Shown here: positions 28,102 to 55,373 of the stretch, piece after piece
Layout of the letters: every line of letters begins with the position of its first letter
Position numbering within the stretch: the stretch's first letter is position 1
From: Cellvibrionaceae bacterium
GTDB lineage: Bacteria > Pseudomonadota > Gammaproteobacteria > Pseudomonadales > Cellvibrionaceae
Assembly (NCBI GenBank): GCA_002707785.1
Contig: PANW01000076.1
Coordinates: 62,001 to 126,000, forward strand
Length of the DNA stretch: 64,000 bases
Direction of reading: 5' to 3'
The notes under the pieces: generated by a model
Told to the model about the DNA's origin: nothing
Seen by the model: the letters and a program-made list of their open reading frames with translations, nothing else
The model's database searches: none
Position numbers and translations under genes: made by a program

Positions 28102-30138
28102 ATGCCCGAACGACACAGACTCACGCGTTTTAACGCCTGGCGAAACGCTTCTTGGCTCAGCACCTGCTGCGTAATACTCGCGAGCCTGTCTTTCCAGCTG
28201 TCTGCCTCTACCGAAGCACTCAAAGCCCCATACAACTCTTACTACTCGCCCCCCATACCCACTAACCCTGCACTGATCTTGCAGCACCGGCAGCACTACC
28301 TATCTGCCAAAGAAGCGCTGCGCAGGGGACAAAAAGTCAATTACAGGAAGTATCGCGACCGGTTGCATGGCTATGCGCTGGCTGACTACTTGGACTTCTT
28401 TGAGCTCAACAAACGCCTGCGTCGCTTGCCCTTTCAGGACGTTGACGCCTTTTTAGAGGCTCATCCCAACACCTATATGGGTGACAAGCTCCGTCAGCGT
28501 TGGCTTCACCAATTGGCGCGAAATAATCGCTGGACCGAATTCCTAGCTTACTATGATGCTAACGTCGCCAACACGACCTCTTTGCAATGTCGAGCTCTGT
28601 TAGCTCGGCATAAGACGGGTGACTCAACAGCTCTCGATGAAGTTGCCCCCCTTTGGACAGTCGAGCATTCACAACCCAAAGAATGCGACCCCTTATTCAA
28701 AGCTTGGATTGCAGCCGGTAGCCGAACTCAAGCTCTAAATTGGGAGCGGTTCAATCTAGCCATGTCTGCGGGCAATCGCACCCTAGCTCGCTATCTGGCG
28801 AAGTCACTCGAAGGCCAGCAAAAAGACTTGGCTCAACTGCATCTGGAGATTTACAGCCACCCGCAGCGAATTCGCCAACGCCATAGATTCCAACAGCAGT
28901 CCCCCGCCATGCAAACAATCATTTTGCAGGGACTCACCCGCTACGCTCGCAGAGATCCGATTACTGCACTCAATGAATGGGGCCGCTACGACGCCCAGCA
29001 GCTGTTCGATGACCAACAGCGACTAGCGACACAGCAGCAGCTTGCTATGCAACTGGTAAAAAAAGGCCATCAAAACTCTGCCGACAAACTGGTGGCGAAC
29101 ATCCCACAGATCACCAGCGAAAAAGTCACCGAGTTTCTGATTCGCGATGCACTTAAACAGCAAGACTGGGCCAAGATTTATCGCTACTTAAGACATTTGC
29201 CTGAGCAAGACCAGCACGCAGAAAAGTGGCTCTATTGGCGCGCACGTGCCTTGGAACAGCTCAGCATTACCGACCCAGAATTCCCCAGGCCTGAAGAGAT
29301 CTATCAGCAACTCGCCATGGAGAGAGGCTTCTACGCATTCTTGGCGGCTGATCGTTTAGGGCGCGGCTACCAACTCAGCGATCGCCCTGTCACGCCCACA
29401 AAAGACGTTCTGCTGGCCATTGCCAACCATCCCGCCACAATCAGAGCTCGCGAGCTCAAAGCCGTCAATGACCACCTCAACGCCAATCGTGAATGGCTGT
29501 ATATGACCAGCCGCTTTAATCGCGAGGAGGAGCACATCGCGGCGGCCAAACTTGCCCATCAATGGGGTTGGCACCATAAGACCATTACGTCGATGGCCTC
29601 GGCAAAGTCGTGGGATGATTTACGTTTGAGGTTTCCACTGGCCTATAACAAACAAGTATTCTCTTCGGCTCAGAAACAACAAGTGTCTCCTTTACTACTC
29701 TTCTCCATCGCCCGCCAAGAAAGCGCTTTTGCCGAACAGGCCGCGTCTCCCGCCGGTGCTATGGGTTTAATGCAGCTTATGCCAGGTACGGCTCGCTACA
29801 CCGCTAAAAAAGCGGGCATAAAATATCGCAAAAGCGACCTATTCAAAGCCGACACGAACATCCAACTTGGTAGTTTTTATATCACTGAATTACTAAACCG
29901 CTATCAAGGCAACCGCATTCTAGCCGCCGCAGCTTACAACGCAGGCCCACATCGAGTGGATAGATGGCTAAAATCATCCGCCAACAACCTACCTCACGAT
30001 GTTTGGATTGAAACAATACCCTTTAAAGAAACTCGGAAATACGTACAGAACGTACTGGCCTACTCCGTAATTTACGGCTATCGAACCGGTACCACACCGG
30101 CGATGCTGAGCCCGCTAGAGCAAAACAAAACGCTTTAA
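28102..30138 (+). CDS. slt: soluble lytic murein transglycosylase Slt
   Basis: Periplasmic enzyme that cleaves peptidoglycan to 1,6-anhydro-muropeptides, the substrates later handled by NagZ. It is 678 residues, with an N-terminal signal segment (about 15-36), a long alpha-helical superhelix (about 50-480) and the goose-lysozyme-like catalytic domain. Catalytic Glu540 lies in ARQESAF, followed by SPAGAMGLMQLMPGTA and AAAYNAGPHRV. Size and order match E. coli Slt70. It is divergent from uup, as in Pseudomonas. The ribosome site before the ATG is weak. Confidence 0.95.
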   Translation: MPERHRLTRFNAWRNASWLSTCCVILASLSFQLSASTEALKAPYNSYYSPPIPTNPALILQHRQHYLSAKEALRRGQKVNYRKYRDRLHGYALADYLDFFELNKRLRRLPFQDVDAFLEAHPNTYMGDKLRQRWLHQLARNNRWTEFLAYYDANVANTTSLQCRALLARHKTGDSTALDEVAPLWTVEHSQPKECDPLFKAWIAAGSRTQALNWERFNLAMSAGNRTLARYLAKSLEGQQKDLAQLHLEIYSHPQRIRQRHRFQQQSPAMQTIILQGLTRYARRDPITALNEWGRYDAQQLFDDQQRLATQQQLAMQLVKKGHQNSADKLVANIPQITSEKVTEFLIRDALKQQDWAKIYRYLRHLPEQDQHAEKWLYWRARALEQLSITDPEFPRPEEIYQQLAMERGFYAFLAADRLGRGYQLSDRPVTPTKDVLLAIANHPATIRARELKAVNDHLNANREWLYMTSRFNREEEHIAAAKLAHQWGWHHKTITSMASAKSWDDLRLRFPLAYNKQVFSSAQKQQVSPLLLFSIARQESAFAEQAASPAGAMGLMQLMPGTARYTAKKAGIKYRKSDLFKADTNIQLGSFYITELLNRYQGNRILAAAAYNAGPHRVDRWLKSSANNLPHDVWIETIPFKETRKYVQNVLAYSVIYGYRTGTTPAMLSPLEQNKTL

Positions 30139-30210: not shown

Positions 30211-30792
30211 GTGACCAGTTCGCACACCAACAACGATGACATCCTAACCAGCAAGAGTGATTTACTGCATGTAAAAGAGACGATCTCCATGCTTTACTTA
30301 GCCGTGTGCCAAATAGAAGCATCGATCAAAGACAGTAACAACTCTGTCGACGCTTTAACAACTTCCTTTACCGATTTGGCGAAACACTCTCAAGAAGTGG
30401 ATGAACACGTCCAAGCAATGAACGATCTGAGCGAGTTGAACGACATTAAGCGCCAAGTCAGTGAAACCTCGACCGAGATGCAAGGTAAAATCAATCAAGC
30501 CATCACAGCTTTTCAATTCTATGACCGTGTCAGCCAGCGACTCGATCACGTGGCCCGAAATTTAGAGAAAGTTAGCGATGTGATCGGCAATCCTGATGAC
30601 ATCAATAACCCGAGCATCTGGGCCAACATTCAAAATGAGGTCAAGAACAGCTACTCGATGGAATCCGAACGCATTATGTTCGAACACATTATGCGCGGTG
30701 CTTCCGTCAAAGAAGCTTTAGAAATCTACCAACATCATTTCAGCCAAGAAGAGGTAGGTGAAGACGATGGCGACGAGGTAGAACTGTTTTAA
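30211..30792 (+). CDS. CheZ-like small helical protein (DxxxQ motif)
   Basis: A 193-residue, almost wholly helical, acidic protein. Residues 100-115 (AFQFYDRVSQRLDHV) contain D105-x3-Q109, which resembles the catalytic D143/Q147 pair in QDFQDLTGQV of E. coli CheZ. The protein ends in the acidic tail GDEVELF, comparable to the CheY-binding C-terminus of CheZ. I infer a CheY-P phosphatase-like or CheY-binding role; this is not proven, and the overall similarity to CheZ is low. An AAGGATTAAGA site precedes the GTG. The convergent neighbour encodes a CheV-type protein, which supports a chemosensory setting. Confidence 0.6.
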   Translation: MTSSHTNNDDILTSKSDLLHVKETISMLYLAVCQIEASIKDSNNSVDALTTSFTDLAKHSQEVDEHVQAMNDLSELNDIKRQVSETSTEMQGKINQAITAFQFYDRVSQRLDHVARNLEKVSDVIGNPDDINNPSIWANIQNEVKNSYSMESERIMFEHIMRGASVKEALEIYQHHFSQEEVGEDDGDEVELF

Positions 30793-30878
30793 GGGGAGGA
30801 GCCGTTCTCTGAAACAAAGAACTTTAAATGGAGCACATGACTAATCGATTTAACCCATCGACCAGCCATCGATGATGG

Positions 30879-31829
30879 CTAACGCCAATCACCGCTATCG
30901 AGTCGATGACGTAAATGCGCTTGAACCTTCTCCGCCAACTCATCAGGCTGGAACTTTGAAAGAAAATCATTACACCCCACCTTCTTCACCATCGCTTTAT
31001 TGAAATTCCCAGATAGCGAGGTATGCAGAATGACATGCAAATCTTGTAAAGCGGGATCACTGCGTATCTCATGAGTTAACCGGTAGCCATCCATTTCTGG
31101 CATTTCGGCATCGGTAACTAACATCAAGTATTCTTGCGGAACATTGACACCTTTCGCCGCTTCATCTTTCAAAAACTGAAGCATTTTCAATCCATCCTGA
31201 CGAAAAACTGTCTCAATACCGATGTTTTTCAACGTACTACTGGCCTGACGATAGGCGGTTGAGGAATCATCAGCCATCAATACCTTCACCTCATGAACAC
31301 TGGCATAATCCACCAGTTCATCATCCACCACCTCGGCAGAGACGGCTGTTTCATAGGGAATAATCTCGGCCAGTACTCGCTCAACATCGAGAATTTCAAC
31401 AATCTCCTCTTCTAAGCGTGTAATGGCAGTCAGAAAATGACTGCGCCCTGAGCCTTTCGGTGGCGGTAGAATCAGCTCCCAATTGAGATTGACGATACGA
31501 TCCACCGCACCCACCAAGAACGCCTGTACCGTGCGATTGTATTCAGTGACGATCAGATTGCAGTTCTCATGATTGCGCAGTGGCGGCCCGCCAATAGCGG
31601 CGCTTAAATCAATCACAGAGATAGTTTGATCGCGAAGGTGGGTGACCCCGACCACGTGAGGGTCACTGTGGGGTAAAGCGGTTAACGCGGGGACTTGGAG
31701 CACTTCCTGTATTTTGAATACATTGAGGGCGAATAGCTGCCTTCCAGCCAAGCGAAACATCAACAACTCGAGCCGATTTTCACCTACCAACTGGGTGCGC
31801 TGATCAACAGAATCCAGCAGTTTGGACAT
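30879..31829 (-). CDS. cheV: chemotaxis coupling protein CheV (CheW-receiver fusion)
   Basis: A 316-residue fusion. An N-terminal CheW domain (about 15-160: LMFRLAGRQLFALNVFKIQEV, then GVTHLRDQTISVIDL) couples receptors to CheA. The C-terminal receiver domain (180-305) has D187/D188, phosphoacceptor D240 in VTDAEMPEMDG, and K292 in LSKF. CheV tunes signalling by phosphorylation. No CheA, CheB or flagellar genes are in this window, so it is an isolated copy; bacteria of this group often have several CheV proteins. It converges on the CheZ-like gene. Confidence 0.92.
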   Translation of the reverse strand: MSKLLDSVDQRTQLVGENRLELLMFRLAGRQLFALNVFKIQEVLQVPALTALPHSDPHVVGVTHLRDQTISVIDLSAAIGGPPLRNHENCNLIVTEYNRTVQAFLVGAVDRIVNLNWELILPPPKGSGRSHFLTAITRLEEEIVEILDVERVLAEIIPYETAVSAEVVDDELVDYASVHEVKVLMADDSSTAYRQASSTLKNIGIETVFRQDGLKMLQFLKDEAAKGVNVPQEYLMLVTDAEMPEMDGYRLTHEIRSDPALQDLHVILHTSLSGNFNKAMVKKVGCNDFLSKFQPDELAEKVQAHLRHRLDSGDWR

Positions 31830-32315: not shown

Positions 32316-33593
32316 TTAGTCATCGTCTCGCTCAAGAGCCGGTAAACCCTCGAGAATTTGGTTCACGGTTTTCTGAAAAGCCCCCTCTTCGGAGCGATCA
32401 AACCACTCGGTTAGACTCTCGAGTAAGGCACCAGGTTGCTGGAAATTGGATGCGGTATCGAGCGCCTCCAATACATCTCGAACGAATCCACCGAGCGGCT
32501 GCAGCCGATCTGCCAACGCAGGTGCCTCACCAATCCCTGAGTCTCTAACACCTTCATAGGCCTGGGTCACGCGCTGCACTGAGGTCTGAGACAAATTCAG
32601 TGCAAATGCACTGATTTCACTGGAATCATAACCGACTTCCAGCGCTTGTTCGAAAGCTCCTTCCAAATCGCCAGAGAAGAACGTTTCCGCCAAATCATTG
32701 ACCTGACCAAGCAAGTCATTGATCGCAGCAAGCTCTGCTTCATCCAACTCGCCAGCCACTGAAAAGGAGAATTGATGCTTTTCACTTTGCGCTTCGGAAT
32801 ACTGCAATAAAGTCTCGACACCGGGAAGGTAAGAAGCATATTGCTGAGTGACACTGGCACGCATACTACTGGCATCGATGGTCACCTTGTCACCATCAGC
32901 CGTCGTCAGACTAAATTGGAAACTGTTCTTTTGGGCGATGTCATTGCGCTCATAAGCGGAAACACTGCTTAGACTACCACTAGGCTGTGTACTCACCTGC
33001 CCAGCTCCAGCAGCATCCGTAGGAGTCTGCTCCACAGGTGCCTGCTCGTCACTGTCGATAAGTTGAGACCTCAACTCCTCAACACCCGCCAGCACCAGCT
33101 CGCGCGTTTGATTGATGTCAGCGCGAATATCATCGGACAAAAAGCCCATTTCCTCTAGTTGCTCTGCAGCTTCGGCAAATCCTTTCTCAAACCCTTCCAA
33201 TCCTGCCGCCAAACGAGATTCCAACTCTTCTTGAGTGGCGCCATCTTGTAAGTCACGCTGTAACTGCGCCTCGATGAAGCTCAGGATGTTGTTGGACGCC
33301 GTCAACGCGCCCTCTGAGGGCTGCGCCGCCTTCTGGGTTTCCGCAGGTCCGTAGAGATCATCCACACCCGTCGATATACGGTAGCTACTTTGATAAGACT
33401 CATAGCGCTCTGAGCGGATAAAAACGGCCGATGGGCTAGCATCTCGACGCGGCGAAGACTGTCCAGCATCCGAGTCGGGCGCCTCACTGGGGCGTGCAGC
33501 GGCCTGCCGGCCAAACATAAAGTCTTGGCGCGATTGAAATTGCTCCGATCGAGTGTAACTAACGTCTTGATTGAATAGCGCTGCTGGAAACAC
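32316..33593 (-). CDS. hypothetical protein, DUF5610-like
   Basis: A 425-residue acidic, Gln/Ser/Glu-rich protein without signal peptide or membrane helix. The N-terminal third looks disordered. The centre (about 100-190) is helical and acidic. The region from about 215 holds FQFSLTTADGDKVTIDASS, the beta motif I associate with DUF5610 proteins of Pseudomonas-like bacteria. The frame opens at 33638; I use the GTG at 33593 because CGGGAGG stands at proper distance before it. No function is known. A palindrome framed by direct repeats (33701-33738) lies 108 bases upstream. Confidence 0.6.
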   Translation of the reverse strand: MFPAALFNQDVSYTRSEQFQSRQDFMFGRQAAARPSEAPDSDAGQSSPRRDASPSAVFIRSERYESYQSSYRISTGVDDLYGPAETQKAAQPSEGALTASNNILSFIEAQLQRDLQDGATQEELESRLAAGLEGFEKGFAEAAEQLEEMGFLSDDIRADINQTRELVLAGVEELRSQLIDSDEQAPVEQTPTDAAGAGQVSTQPSGSLSSVSAYERNDIAQKNSFQFSLTTADGDKVTIDASSMRASVTQQYASYLPGVETLLQYSEAQSEKHQFSFSVAGELDEAELAAINDLLGQVNDLAETFFSGDLEGAFEQALEVGYDSSEISAFALNLSQTSVQRVTQAYEGVRDSGIGEAPALADRLQPLGGFVRDVLEALDTASNFQQPGALLESLTEWFDRSEEGAFQKTVNQILEGLPALERDDD

Positions 33594-33700
33594 GGTAACC
33601 TCCCGTTTTCTCGTCGACTGCCCGACTCGCTGAAGCAAGGCACATCAGGGTGAATACCCTGTTGTCGGCGATTTCGAAGAGAACTGTAGGACCGATAGGT

Positions 33701-33738
33701 TCTAAGGAGAAAGCTCCAATGCACATTGGAGTCTAAGG
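33701..33738. promoter_or_regulatory. 18-bp palindrome framed by direct repeats
   Basis: CTCCAATG-CA-CATTGGAG (33714-33731) has perfect 8-bp arms. The heptamer TCTAAGG occurs on both sides (33701-33707 and 33732-33738). It lies upstream of the DUF5610-like gene and downstream of the FHA gene, so it may be an operator or a transcript-end hairpin. Confidence 0.4.
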
Positions 33739-33863
33739 TAGGTAGCGCCACATAAAACGAGCAGAAAGCCCCGCCTCAGGAAGCCATTCACTATGGTCTT
33801 AGGTGAGTTTTAAAAAGCAGCCTTTGCAATGACTAGGTACTGCCCGTAGCCCGCAATTCTGCC

Positions 33864-34760
33864 CTACAACCAACCATTACGCATGGCGAAATACACACCA
33901 CCCGCAATAATAATCAACAAGCCCAAACCTATTAATCCACCACGCCCGCTCAAAGAGGCCGACGGCTCGATAGTTTCTACCGCTCGTGACTTCTCCGCTG
34001 GCGCTGGGCGACGCACTGTCTGGGCTCGACCCGAGGAGCGCTGCGGCGCAGCACGACCCGCTGCCGGCTTGGGATTTTTGGAAGGACTCGGTCCACCTTT
34101 GGGGACTGAGCGCACGGTGGTTTTATCAAGATCATCAGAAGGACCAATCACGCCAAAACTCAAGGTATCAAAACGCAGATCATCACCGCGCTTAACTCGA
34201 CTCTCACGAACTCTCTCACCATTGACGTAAGTGCCATTGGAAGAATCGAGATCCTTAACGTAGAGCAGACCGTTTTTAACCCGTAATTCAGCGTGACGAC
34301 GACTTAAATGTGCGGCCGCCAAAGTAATATCACACTCGTTGGAGCGGCCGACGGTATTGTTTGCTTTGAGGGCAAAAATTCGATTCGACAGCGCGGTATG
34401 GTTGGCCTTTAGCGCCCAGCCTGTGCTTTCTTCCTGTCGAGTTACTGTAGGTGCCGGACGAGATTCCTGCTTCGGATCCACCACTTGCAACTCAGTATTA
34501 CCGATTTTGAGCACGTCAGCCGGCGCTACGCGTACCGCTCGGCCAAACACAACGGGCTTATTATTGACCGCGACATTATTCGACTCGGTCAATAGTTTTA
34601 ACTCGAGCTGTTCATGGTTGACGCTGATTTCTACGTGATTGGCAGCAATGCCAGCGCCATCCAAGACCAGATCGCAGGCTGCGCTGCGACCAATAGTGAC
34701 TTTCGGTTCCACAAGCCACACCGCATTTTGTTTATTATTAGTAAAGCGGAGCTTGAGCAT
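33864..34760 (-). CDS. double-FHA membrane protein
   Basis: A 298-residue protein with two forkhead-associated (phosphothreonine-binding) domains. The first (about 1-95) has VTIGRSAACDLVL; the second (about 120-205) is closer to consensus, with VGRSNECDITL, SRRHAEL and LDSSNGTYVNGERV. A Pro/Arg/Ala-rich linker (215-265) leads to one membrane helix at the C-terminus (about 273-295), so it is tail-anchored with both FHA domains in the cytoplasm. It is divergent from a PP2C phosphatase and Ser/Thr kinase pair, which suggests it reads their phosphothreonine signals. Confidence 0.9.
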   Translation of the reverse strand: MLKLRFTNNKQNAVWLVEPKVTIGRSAACDLVLDGAGIAANHVEISVNHEQLELKLLTESNNVAVNNKPVVFGRAVRVAPADVLKIGNTELQVVDPKQESRPAPTVTRQEESTGWALKANHTALSNRIFALKANNTVGRSNECDITLAAAHLSRRHAELRVKNGLLYVKDLDSSNGTYVNGERVRESRVKRGDDLRFDTLSFGVIGPSDDLDKTTVRSVPKGGPSPSKNPKPAAGRAAPQRSSGRAQTVRRPAPAEKSRAVETIEPSASLSGRGGLIGLGLLIIIAGGVYFAMRNGWL

Positions 34761-35168
34761 AAAGGCGATATCCTCAATTCAATTGACCTTAAAGTTGAGC
34801 CGATAATGCATAAAAGACTGAGGCCGATCAATAGGTTAGGTGAAATAATTCACTTTATTCTCTAAGATTTAGCGGTAATATACATTTTGCTGTCGCTGGG
34901 GTTGATTCAAGTGGTGTTTTCATCGATAAAACCCCATCGCCTCGGCGTAATGACTCGTTTAGAAGCGGAAGGTTACTGCCAACTGTGCTTTAGTTGGCTC
35001 AACCACCGGGACGCTCAAAAGCGAGCATAGCGCGAATAACAAAAATAAACGAAAGCCATCGTATCGCCTACTCTGTACGATAAGCGGTTCGACAAGTATA
35101 GACAGCATTGCCCATAGGCCTTGCAGAATAAACCGGAAACTTGATCCGAAAACGGCCACGGACCCATT
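34761..35168. other. FHA/PP2C divergent promoter region (no gene)
   Basis: A 408-base gap between divergent genes, with an A/T-rich core around 34840-34890. It holds no supportable gene, terminator or clear operator. Confidence 0.5.
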
Positions 35169-36020
35169 ATGCCCTCATTACAATCCCATTCTTTGACCGA
35201 CAAAGGGCTCGTAAGGGATAACAACGAAGACTGCTACCTGAGCAAACCCAGCGAAGGGCTCTGGGCAGTGGCCGATGGCATGGGCGGACACGAAGCGGGT
35301 GAAGTGGCCAGTGCCATCGTCAAACGAACACTCGATGAAGCAAAGGTTAGCGGGCGCAACCTCGAAGACGCCATTCACACCTCCCACAAAGCCGTACTGA
35401 AAGCCGCACTAAAAGGTGAAGGCGCTGCCGGCATGGGATCGACCGTGGTCGCCCTCAACTGCAATGATCTTGAGTACCAAGTATCGTGGGTAGGCGACAG
35501 TCGTGCATATCTCTGGTCAGAAGAGCGCGACGGAGGACGTCTCGAACAACTCACCACCGATCACTCCTACGTACAGATGTTGCTAGCCTCAGGAGCAATA
35601 GGCCCGGACGAAGTTGATAGTCACCCTGAGAAGAACATTATCACCCAGTGTATTGGCTCGCTGGATCTTCCCCAAATAAAGGTCGATACCGTGCGCGGTA
35701 GCTGGGAAAAACAACAGTGGATTATCCTCTGCAGCGACGGCCTCAGCGATGAAGTGGATAACACCAGTATCGCTCAAATACTCTGTCATGCGCGCACACC
35801 GAAAGAGGCAACAGAACAATTAATGCAAGAAGCTCTCAACAATGGCGGCAACGACAATGTAACCGTGCAAGTCATTGAGTCGCCACTTTTTAAGCGCAGC
35901 CCAATCCACAAACTTAATGAGTGGCTACCCCGTGTTACAGGCCACCAGTGGATTGATACCAGCTTATACAGCATGGCATTACTGAGTGTTGTGTTGATTG
36001 CTTACTGGACACTGCGGTAG
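35169..36020 (+). CDS. PP2C-type Ser/Thr phosphatase with C-terminal anchor
   Basis: Metal-dependent protein phosphatase of 283 residues. Conserved PP2C motifs: RDNNEDCYL, VADGMGGHEAGEVAS (metal Asp), VGDSRAYLW, LCSDGLSDEV and GGNDNVTV. A hydrophobic segment at the very end (about 264-282) would anchor it to the inner membrane. It lies 18 bases before the kinase gene on the same strand, so the two form an operon that can write and erase the same phosphorylation marks. Similar trios control type VI secretion in some bacteria, but no such genes are seen here. Confidence 0.93.
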   Translation: MPSLQSHSLTDKGLVRDNNEDCYLSKPSEGLWAVADGMGGHEAGEVASAIVKRTLDEAKVSGRNLEDAIHTSHKAVLKAALKGEGAAGMGSTVVALNCNDLEYQVSWVGDSRAYLWSEERDGGRLEQLTTDHSYVQMLLASGAIGPDEVDSHPEKNIITQCIGSLDLPQIKVDTVRGSWEKQQWIILCSDGLSDEVDNTSIAQILCHARTPKEATEQLMQEALNNGGNDNVTVQVIESPLFKRSPIHKLNEWLPRVTGHQWIDTSLYSMALLSVVLIAYWTLR

Positions 36021-54215: not shown

Positions 54216-55373
54216 TTAGAACAGATCTACGTCACCTGAATTCATCGACTCTTGCCGGGAGTCCACAGTGACGTTTCTAAAGCTTCGCAGTTGCTCCAAA
54301 AGCTCTCCCACAGCCTGCATCTCTCCTGGACTTTCTTCTGTGTGAATCAACGCCTCACTCATTAGCTGCTTCATCACATCTAGGCGCGAATTTATTTGTT
54401 GCAACTGCTGTACAGTAATGTCTTCAAACTGCAACTGAGTAATACTCTCACCGACCAAGCTATCTATCTTCTGAGCCACGTCCGACACTCTTGCCGAACG
54501 CGACTTAGCATCGCTGGCCAACGCTTCGACTTCTGCCCACATGGCCGCCACCTGCTGTTGTGCTGCGGCTTGGCCTGAGACATCAAAATTGGTCACGGTT
54601 TCCATATTCGCTCCTACGGAACGGATGGCGGTCGCCAACTCAGCCACCTTGTTACTGATTTCACCACTAAACTCTTCTGTCCGCCTCGAGAGATTTCGAA
54701 CTTCGTCTGCCACTACTGCAAACCCCCGCCCAGCCTCACCAGCTCTTGCAGCTTCAATTGCTGCGTTGAGTGCCAATAGATTGGTTTGAGAATTAATATT
54801 GACGACGTCGGCTAAGAGCACATCAATGGTCTCAATCAACTTTAGCATCACCGAGAATTGCTCACTGGCTTGGACGCTGGCGTGATGTATATCTTCAAGC
54901 GACTGCAATAGCGAGGCCACCACCTTTTCAGAGACTTCCGAGTAGTGCTCTAGCTCTTCACCATTGCTCTCTTGTTGCGCCAGTTGCACCAACTCATCAA
55001 TCAGCCCGCCCAGAATATCTTGCTGACTACTTGATGCATCGCGCAGCCCCTTCAAGCTTGAATTGAGCTGACTACTGGCATTACCCACCACCTGCTTAAC
55101 GTGACCAACATCATCAATGGCTTCATTAATTTGTAAGTAAGTAACATTAAAAACGTCTTTTAGATATTCAAAGTGCTCATCCGATTTAGACAACACCTCG
55201 GTAACCACTTCTTGCTGACTCTTTGCCCCTATGATCGACCAATAGCCCACCCCTAACCACAGCAACGCCACGATGAGAACAGGCAACACCCAGCCCGCGT
55301 AGGCGAATCCTACAATGCAGGAAGCCAATACCCCTTGAACGGCTAAAGCCCATCGACTTGCTTGAGTGATCAT
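54216..55373 (-). CDS. MCP-like signalling protein with two N-terminal helices
   Basis: A 385-residue protein of the methyl-accepting chemotaxis type without a periplasmic sensor. Two hydrophobic helices (about 7-25 and 28-48) lie back to back, then a coiled coil and the signalling hairpin tip ([32 protein letters not shown]). No HAMP domain is seen. Residues 315-322 read LQFEDITVQ, with D318-x3-Q322, and the protein ends GDVDLF, both like the protein at 30211-30792. It probably signals inside the cytoplasm; its input is unknown. Confidence 0.88.

Follow-up and report, generated by a model that had tools for sequence, protein, structure and literature searches.

A conserved Q-x2-D-x3-Q module with a common C-terminal tail in a free and a receptor-like protein, associated with chemotaxis genes and CheD

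Profile comparison of their sequences shows that the C-terminal modules of two proteins, P1 and P2, encoded in the window (the whole 64,000-nucleotide stretch of Cellvibrionaceae DNA analysed here) are homologous and share a common ancestry. The module carries a conserved Q-x2-D-x3-Q stripe at the predicted surface, shows an association with CheD as well as with che genes in general, and has a C-terminal tail that is common to both proteins. In our reading, to which we assign a probability of roughly 0.6, P1 and P2 are free and receptor-fused auxiliary phosphatases of a chemotaxis receiver, probably that of a CheD-type system, and the tail is a docking peptide. The features are given below, with positions counted from the first letter of the window.

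30211 to 30792, plus strand: P1, 193 amino acids, GTG start; helical, with a predicted hairpin of helices 9-68 and 73-126, shorter helices and a low-confidence tail
30514 to 30549, plus strand: polar stripe of P1 (Q102, D105, Q109, H113), with D105 and Q109 as the putative catalytic pair
30769 to 30789, plus strand: C-terminal tail of P1, GDEVELF; pLDDT below 50 over residues 182-193
30879 to 31829, minus strand: CheV, a CheW-receiver fusion (PF01584, E 2.9e-34; PF00072, E 2.3e-12), convergent with P1
54216 to 55373, minus strand: P2, 385 amino acids; MCP signalling domain with hairpin tip (PF00015, E 3.5e-24), followed by the DxxxQ module
54408 to 54431, minus strand: Q315, D318 and Q322 of P2, invariant in 9/9
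54219 to 54236, minus strand: C-terminal tail of P2, GDVDLF; pLDDT below 50 over residues 366-385

The first-pass annotation had pointed to D105-x3-Q109 and the C-terminus of P1 and to D318-x3-Q322 and the C-terminus of P2. The translation of P1 confirms the first pair of elements and also contains Q102; the second pair was likewise confirmed, with the minus strand as an addition. The D-x3-Q spacing was present in 26 of the 51 window genes of at least 100 amino acids (greedy, non-overlapping ORFs), which places the motif alone at chance level, and D-x3-Q by itself was therefore dropped as evidence. Q-x2-D-x3-Q was found in 6/51 of these genes, and both Q-F-x-D-x3-Q and a C-terminal [DE][IVM][DE][LF]F were confined to P1 and P2. 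Conservation is a stronger test than such motif counts.

Homology between the two modules was examined by hhalign, for which all E-values are pairwise. The P1 family aligned with nine P2-like proteins at a probability of 96 and an E-value of 4.3e-9, with the six rows obtained from the P2 search alone at a probability of 96 (E 3.1e-9), and with 19 receptor-like tails at a probability of 98.5 (E 1.8e-15). Three receptors in the nine-row P2 alignment, L028, L031 and L039, were also matches of the P1 search (L039 as L027); without them the link between P1 and the receptors was unchanged (E 3.1e-9). The 19 tails were chosen by a regular expression that contains the stripe, and their constant Q, D and Q are for this reason not counted as evidence. 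The receptor-like L090 carries the stripe though a filter in this selection missed it, and the receptor-like L367 has the tail without the stripe. In the reciprocal search, the receptor-tail profile recovered P1 in 25/25 P1 genomes (E 4.7e-15 to 2.8e-7) and some form of the module in 44/97 genomes. Q-x2-D-x3-Q was kept in all 30 loci of this search, 19 of which lay outside the profile, while the residue after the first Q varied (F, S, T, Y). Several receptor tails also have a P1-like Y-T-[MT]-x2-[EQ]-R segment between the stripe and the end. These comparisons support the earlier proposal of a single family with soluble and receptor-fused members. Other carriers of the module are the short proteins L203 and L206, with the C-termini IDLF and VDLF, and the large proteins L207, L208, L209, L215 and L221 (ORFs of more than 1100 amino acids) from one distant family of small genomes, in which the module (LQNIDRVxQRL, YVMEEER) lies close to the end of the sequence examined. 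Two copies of it occur in L221, together with long acidic repeats.

The P1 family is unnamed and widespread. P1 matched no Pfam or NCBIfam family over the cut-off, its weak matches being generic coiled coils, and gave nothing at E 0.01 in PHROGs or on plasmids; the best PDB sequence match (E 0.029) was coiled-coil noise. The 24 aligned family members gave only scattered coiled-coil matches against Pfam. In 97 related genomes, 28 had a P1 match at E 1e-3, and 25 were counted as carrying a full or near-full P1. Q102, D105 and Q109 were invariant in 24/24 family members, P1 included, collected by whole-protein search with no motif; they belong to 16 invariant columns of the alignment, which also include the final F. 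The most distant of the 24 (L026, 27% identity) ends in DDELF instead. A scan of named genomes with a peptide pattern returned at least 590 stretches, 564 of them encoding a P1 relative, from which the best 80 were retained; by their titles these come from gamma- and betaproteobacteria. Among P1 and these best 80 of at least 564 relatives, Q102, D105, Q109, W137, Q141, Y148, F157, the final F and some other positions were invariant, with Q102, D105 and Q109 kept in 81/81, H113 in 80 (one unread), and a C-terminus of the form [IV][EDQ][LF]F in 81/81. The count for Q102 and D105 is partly built in, because 77/80 relatives also match the one of the two search patterns that contains QFYD; the three that do not match it still keep both residues, and the counts for Q109, H113 and the tail are free of this bias.

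An AlphaFold (AF2) model of P1 built with 24 sequences had a mean pLDDT of 71.6 and a pTM of 0.54, with the long hairpin followed by short helices. In this model Q102, D105, Q109 and H113 are placed on the second hairpin helix, on the face opposite to the hydrophobic moment (138-218 degrees on the helical wheel). Positions 95, 116 and 120 on the same polar face are variable (22-37% majority), and position 98 is less so (73%). In the prediction both residues of the D/Q pair lie on the polar, solvent-facing side. The model of P2 was poor (mean pLDDT 63.7, pTM 0.32) and was used for helix limits only. The N-terminus of P2 is hydrophobic by eye, and Q315, D318 and Q322 were invariant in 9/9 receptor-like proteins from a whole-protein search. 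The source genome also holds two near-identical receptor-like genes of 382 amino acids, L371 (G000:C38:300500-304500) and L372 (G000:C93:29500-33500), with LQFADIVSQ and the C-terminus EADLF; they reflect a recent gene duplication or, alternatively, a sequence duplicated in the assembly.

The gene neighbourhood links the module to chemotaxis. In the window, P1 adjoins CheV, which is a possible substrate or partner, and lies outside a che operon with cheR or cheD. Such placement occurs in relatives: L155, L157 and L166 have the order P1-CheR-CheD-CheB, with no CheV within the stretch examined, and G091 has P1-CheY-CheA-CheW-MCP-CheR-CheD-CheB. The P1 relative in a full che operon is L026. In L239 a P1-like gene stands amid CheY, CheA, MCP and CheW genes, and in L238 the gene of a module protein of the distant small-genome family, incomplete because the contig begins inside it, stops immediately ahead of cheY-cheA. 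On a plasmid of Vibrio sp. THAF191d the order is MCP-CheR-CheD-CheB followed by a P2-like receptor with LQFTDIIVQ (MCP, CheR and CheB named by eye), and the C-termini of the MCP, CheD and the P2-like receptor are WEEF, DVELF and EVELF. Of the best 80 of at least 564 named P1 loci, 28 are flanked by a CheV gene and 32 by an HDOD gene. The window has a lytic transglycosylase-like gene (by eye) upstream of P1 at 28102-30138, a homologue of which was in the flanks of 23 of the same 80 loci. Genes for a DUF5610 protein and, as named by eye, for an FHA-like protein and a PP2C-like phosphatase lie at 32316-36020; several relatives have homologues on the corresponding side of P1.

The source genome has an operon of its own with CheY, CheA, CheW, MCP, CheR, CheD and CheB on contig C38 (tblastn), which we call F7-like on the basis of its gene content. 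Its MCP ends in EWEEF and its CheD in GDVELF. Within this operon no CheZ match was found in the genome sequence, which is 87.6% complete; the sole CheZ found in the genome (C38:201900-202550) sits next to a different cheY, some 16 kb distant. P2 is located away from the operon, on contig C75.

The association with CheD was quantified across the 97 genomes. CheD was found in 48 of them, namely in 42/44 genomes with the module versus 6/53 of the others (Fisher 1.8e-18, with shared ancestry ignored), so that six CheD genomes are without the module and two module genomes are without CheD. Restricting the comparison to CheZ-positive genomes gave CheD in 40/41 with the module versus 6/32 without it. 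When genomes with P1-only module hits were counted as negatives, a recount that moves six genomes, one of them without CheD, the values were 37/38 versus 11/59. For P1 alone, CheD was present in 24/25 P1 genomes versus 24/72 others. CheZ is a weaker partner of the module than CheD (41/44 versus 32/53), and CheW was found in 95/97 genomes, so general chemotaxis does not explain the association between module and CheD. CheZ was also present in 23/25 P1 genomes; P1 is therefore rarely the sole DxxxQ protein. Neighbourhood and co-occurrence with CheD together support the chemotaxis role put forward earlier.

From the conservation, the model and the genomic context we infer a putative phosphatase activity, its substrate and the partner of the tail. 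The module consists of a helix with the Q-x2-D-x3-Q stripe, followed by an acidic, flexible tail that closes with [IV]-[ED]-[LF]-F, and most likely acts like the DxxxQ end of CheZ. The aspartate and the glutamine would enter the active site of a chemotaxis receiver in its phosphorylated state and accelerate the loss of phosphate, and the flexible tail would dock a partner. P1 would be the free form, while P2 and its kin would place this activity at the array of receptors. As target, the CheY of the CheD-type (F7-like) system would be likeliest, since no CheZ was found in its operon in the source genome, with CheV, the neighbour of P1, as a second candidate. Several observations speak against this reading: P1 falls into CheZ by no profile, most P1 genomes have a CheZ as well, P2 stands apart from the F7-like operon, and the one P1 relative within a full che operon (L026) is the most distant.

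The first-pass annotation had likened the tail to the CheY-binding end of CheZ. As a copy of that end it was not borne out. The tail extends beyond CheZ-like proteins, since CheD has it too. Among the 30 best CheD loci, all 29 readable proteins have [IV][ED]LF, which is terminal in 22 and followed by 1 to 10 more residues in 7; these tails are present with or without P1 in the genome. The DNA pattern for [DE][IVM][DE][LF]F-stop was run on 24 hand-chosen genomes, 18 with CheD and 6 without it. It matched 87 places versus 42 for the reversed pattern. Ends of ORFs of at least 70 amino acids accounted for 51 of the 87, and the other 36 were 21 short frames and 15 places in which the last codon is no stop. 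The 51 ORFs comprised 14 CheD, 13 P1, 7 receptor-like proteins, a receiver family with 7 and a GGDEF family with 5 members, 3 small DUF2175-like proteins, 1 protein without a family and 1 metabolic enzyme (L351, by eye), and none of them was in the six CheD-negative genomes. These families were grouped by BLAST, and 4 receiver, 3 GGDEF and 2 small proteins were scanned against Pfam, one receiver and one DUF2175 match being below the cut-off. The tail is thus common to CheD, P1, P2, a diguanylate cyclase family and a receiver family.

Members of the receiver family (L355, L359, L360, L366, L369, L370 and L343) are about 410-440 amino acids long with an N-terminal receiver, weak in L343, and an [IV]ELF tail; the four scanned in Pfam matched no other family over the cut-off. 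The small proteins (L373:2090-2356, L356:790-1134 and L364:1914-2219; frames of 89-115 amino acids) have a CxxC...HxxC arrangement and are DUF2175-like, with the same tail. L350 (1477-2208), of 244 amino acids, ends in DIDFF and matched no Pfam or NCBIfam family; it has an ELGN stretch (by eye) that we take to recall the CheC/CheX phosphatases.

The presence of the tail on CheD, an unrelated enzyme, gives some weight to the explanation that P1 and P2 are adaptors with no enzymatic activity, in which stripe and tail attach to some part of the CheD-type array, be it CheR, CheB, CheW or a polar organiser, and so tether P1, P2 and CheD. The adjacency of P1 and CheR in L155, L157 and L166 points the same way, as does the receptor-like L367 with its tail and no stripe. 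The tail also recalls the receptor pentapeptide, seen as EWEEF at the C-terminus of the source-genome receptor, and the DXXXQ protein CheT of Sinorhizobium meliloti is reported in complex with CheR (PMC12654446). An adaptor, however, would have no need for an invariant D/Q pair at the spacing of CheZ and CheT. Moreover, in Pseudomonas aeruginosa McpA a valine at the second position of the tail is reported to block binding to all four CheR homologues (PMC7184735), which lowers the standing of the tail as a plain CheR-docking pentapeptide. We regard the adaptor explanation as unlikely.

An explanation centred on CheV would make P1 a CheV-P phosphatase that tunes flagellar chemotaxis, with the CheD correlation as incidental. 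It draws on the CheV genes in the flanks of named P1 loci and on the convergent pair in the window, and McpA-like receptors are reported in the F6 array (PMC7184735). Against it, the module tracks CheD even among CheZ-positive genomes, and P1 lies in CheD operons in L155, L157 and L166, where the stretch examined has no CheV. The co-occurrence with CheD thus lowers P1-CheV as the whole story, and we consider it decidedly improbable. That P1 and P2 are ordinary coiled-coil proteins with D-x3-Q in common by chance, as the frequency of this spacing in the window and the coiled-coil character of the weak P1 Pfam matches might suggest, can be dismissed in view of the 24/24 invariance, the profile homology, the success of the reciprocal receptor-tail search and the co-occurrence with CheD.

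CheY may be proposed as the partner of the tail. The C-terminal ends of FliM and CheZ bind CheY. The tail resembles both ends in the source genome, SQDEIDALL for FliM (named by eye) and DDVDDLLSSLGF for CheZ, and this resemblance is the ground for proposing CheY as its reader. A tentative extension, possible though doubtful in our judgment, is that the tail serves as an address code for the phosphorylated CheY of the CheD-type (F7) system, joining adaptation through CheD, signal termination through the putative phosphatases P1, P2 and the McpA-like receptors, and outputs. If this is true, the outputs would be the diguanylate cyclase family, the receiver family and the DUF2175-like small protein, and F7 systems would gain their missing phosphatase and a c-di-GMP output. 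A precedent for a link from CheY to a cyclase is the reported interaction of Shewanella CheY3 with diguanylate cyclases (PMC7666153), although the CheY3 concerned is the chemotaxis regulator of the flagellar rotor, to which it binds. A tail common to several proteins of one signalling system hints at a hidden wiring code. For species in which the flagellar system is separate, the function of F7 has been termed yet unknown, and a role described as important yet unclear has been ascribed to the conserved C-terminal end of McpA-like receptors (PMC7184735); the DxxxQ module, together with a tail common to CheD and diguanylate cyclases, makes both directly testable. The literature background also included PMC7534058 and PMC10579534. 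Among the matches listed in the literature search, which covered titles and abstract openings and left subscription journals largely outside, we found no description of this module, and within the same titles and abstract openings no DxxxQ stripe in McpA-like receptors and no shared tail.

How does the module relate to known chemotaxis phosphatases? Neither P1 nor P2 matched the CheZ profile (PF04344 / NF041271) or the CheC, CheX and FliY profiles at E up to 10. Membership of P1 in CheZ was rejected on the profiles, and the family search of the source genome found only C38:201900-202550. As regards HisKA_3 kinases, which also have DxxxQ, no dimerisation or ATPase domain was among the P1 and P2 matches at E up to 10. 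The short P1-like protein L239 gave a sub-threshold NCBIfam CheZ match (E 0.0077). By hhalign, the E-values against CheZ were 0.18 for P1 (not significant), 0.032 for the P2 family and 1.4e-3 for the receptor tails (probability 17), and all three alignments were in register, with D on D and Q on Q. The receptor tails aligned with CheT at E 4.4e-4 (probability 33), with stripe and C-terminal GDFEAF both in register; P1 against CheT was not significant (E 0.1) and out of register. As controls, the receptor tails were compared with 22 unrelated families (minimum E 0.042) and with column-shuffled CheZ, CheT and P1, 60 shuffles apiece (minimum E 0.014); reversed decoys gave 0.24 for CheZ, 0.18 for CheT and 0.0025 for P1. 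At E 1.4e-3, the strongest link to CheZ thus has only a small lead over a reversed-sequence decoy at 2.5e-3. Given these control values, the links of the module to CheZ and CheT are suggestive, not established. Foldseek of the P1 model against the PDB returned 563 matches with E up to 10, of which not one reached 0.001. The 50 fold matches listed per search (Foldseek and VIA-align) were generic helical hairpins, PI3K iSH2 and IpaB being examples from VIA-align, and none of these was labelled CheZ, an outcome that proves nothing.

P1 resembles CheZ in its D-x3-Q, which the model places at a solvent-facing site on the second helix of the predicted hairpin, and in its flexible tail. The two differ in the type of tail: whereas CheZ has VDDLL..LGF, with L264, G265 and F266 invariant in 16 CheZ, the P1 family ends in [IV][EDQ][LF]F. 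They differ also in that the module tracks CheD more than CheZ. CheT of S. meliloti, reported to dephosphorylate one CheY (PMC12654446), is alike in being a small DXXXQ protein (124 amino acids). It is encoded downstream of cheD in a che operon, a setting that P1 has in the relatives L155, L157, L166 and G091 and not in the window. The operon sequence is that of CP090106.1, whose annotation lists the gene following cheD as hypothetical, and its assignment as CheT is based on gene order and the account in the review PMC12654446. Q-x2-D-x3-Q was invariant in nine aligned CheT-like sequences, six of which end in D-x-[ED]-x-F. The CheT search matched 11 of 398 genomes of the phylum at E 1e-3, five of them strongly, with the source genome not among them; at least one weak match, L234, is an unrelated enzyme by eye.

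The McpA-like receptors of F7 systems (VCA1088, PA0180/CttP) resemble P2, a likeness drawn from their published description as membrane MCPs with a conserved C-terminus and a valine second in the tail: P2 has an MCP signalling domain, a hydrophobic N-terminus by eye and V as the second residue of the tail. Genes for McpA-like receptors are described directly after cheB (PMC7184735), the very place of the P2-like gene in Vibrio sp. THAF191d, and P2 of the source genome differs in not standing beside the F7-like operon. The available account of these receptors in PMC7184735 makes no mention of the DxxxQ stripe. Taken against these known systems, the module most likely combines a chemistry of known type with a family and an architecture that are both new.
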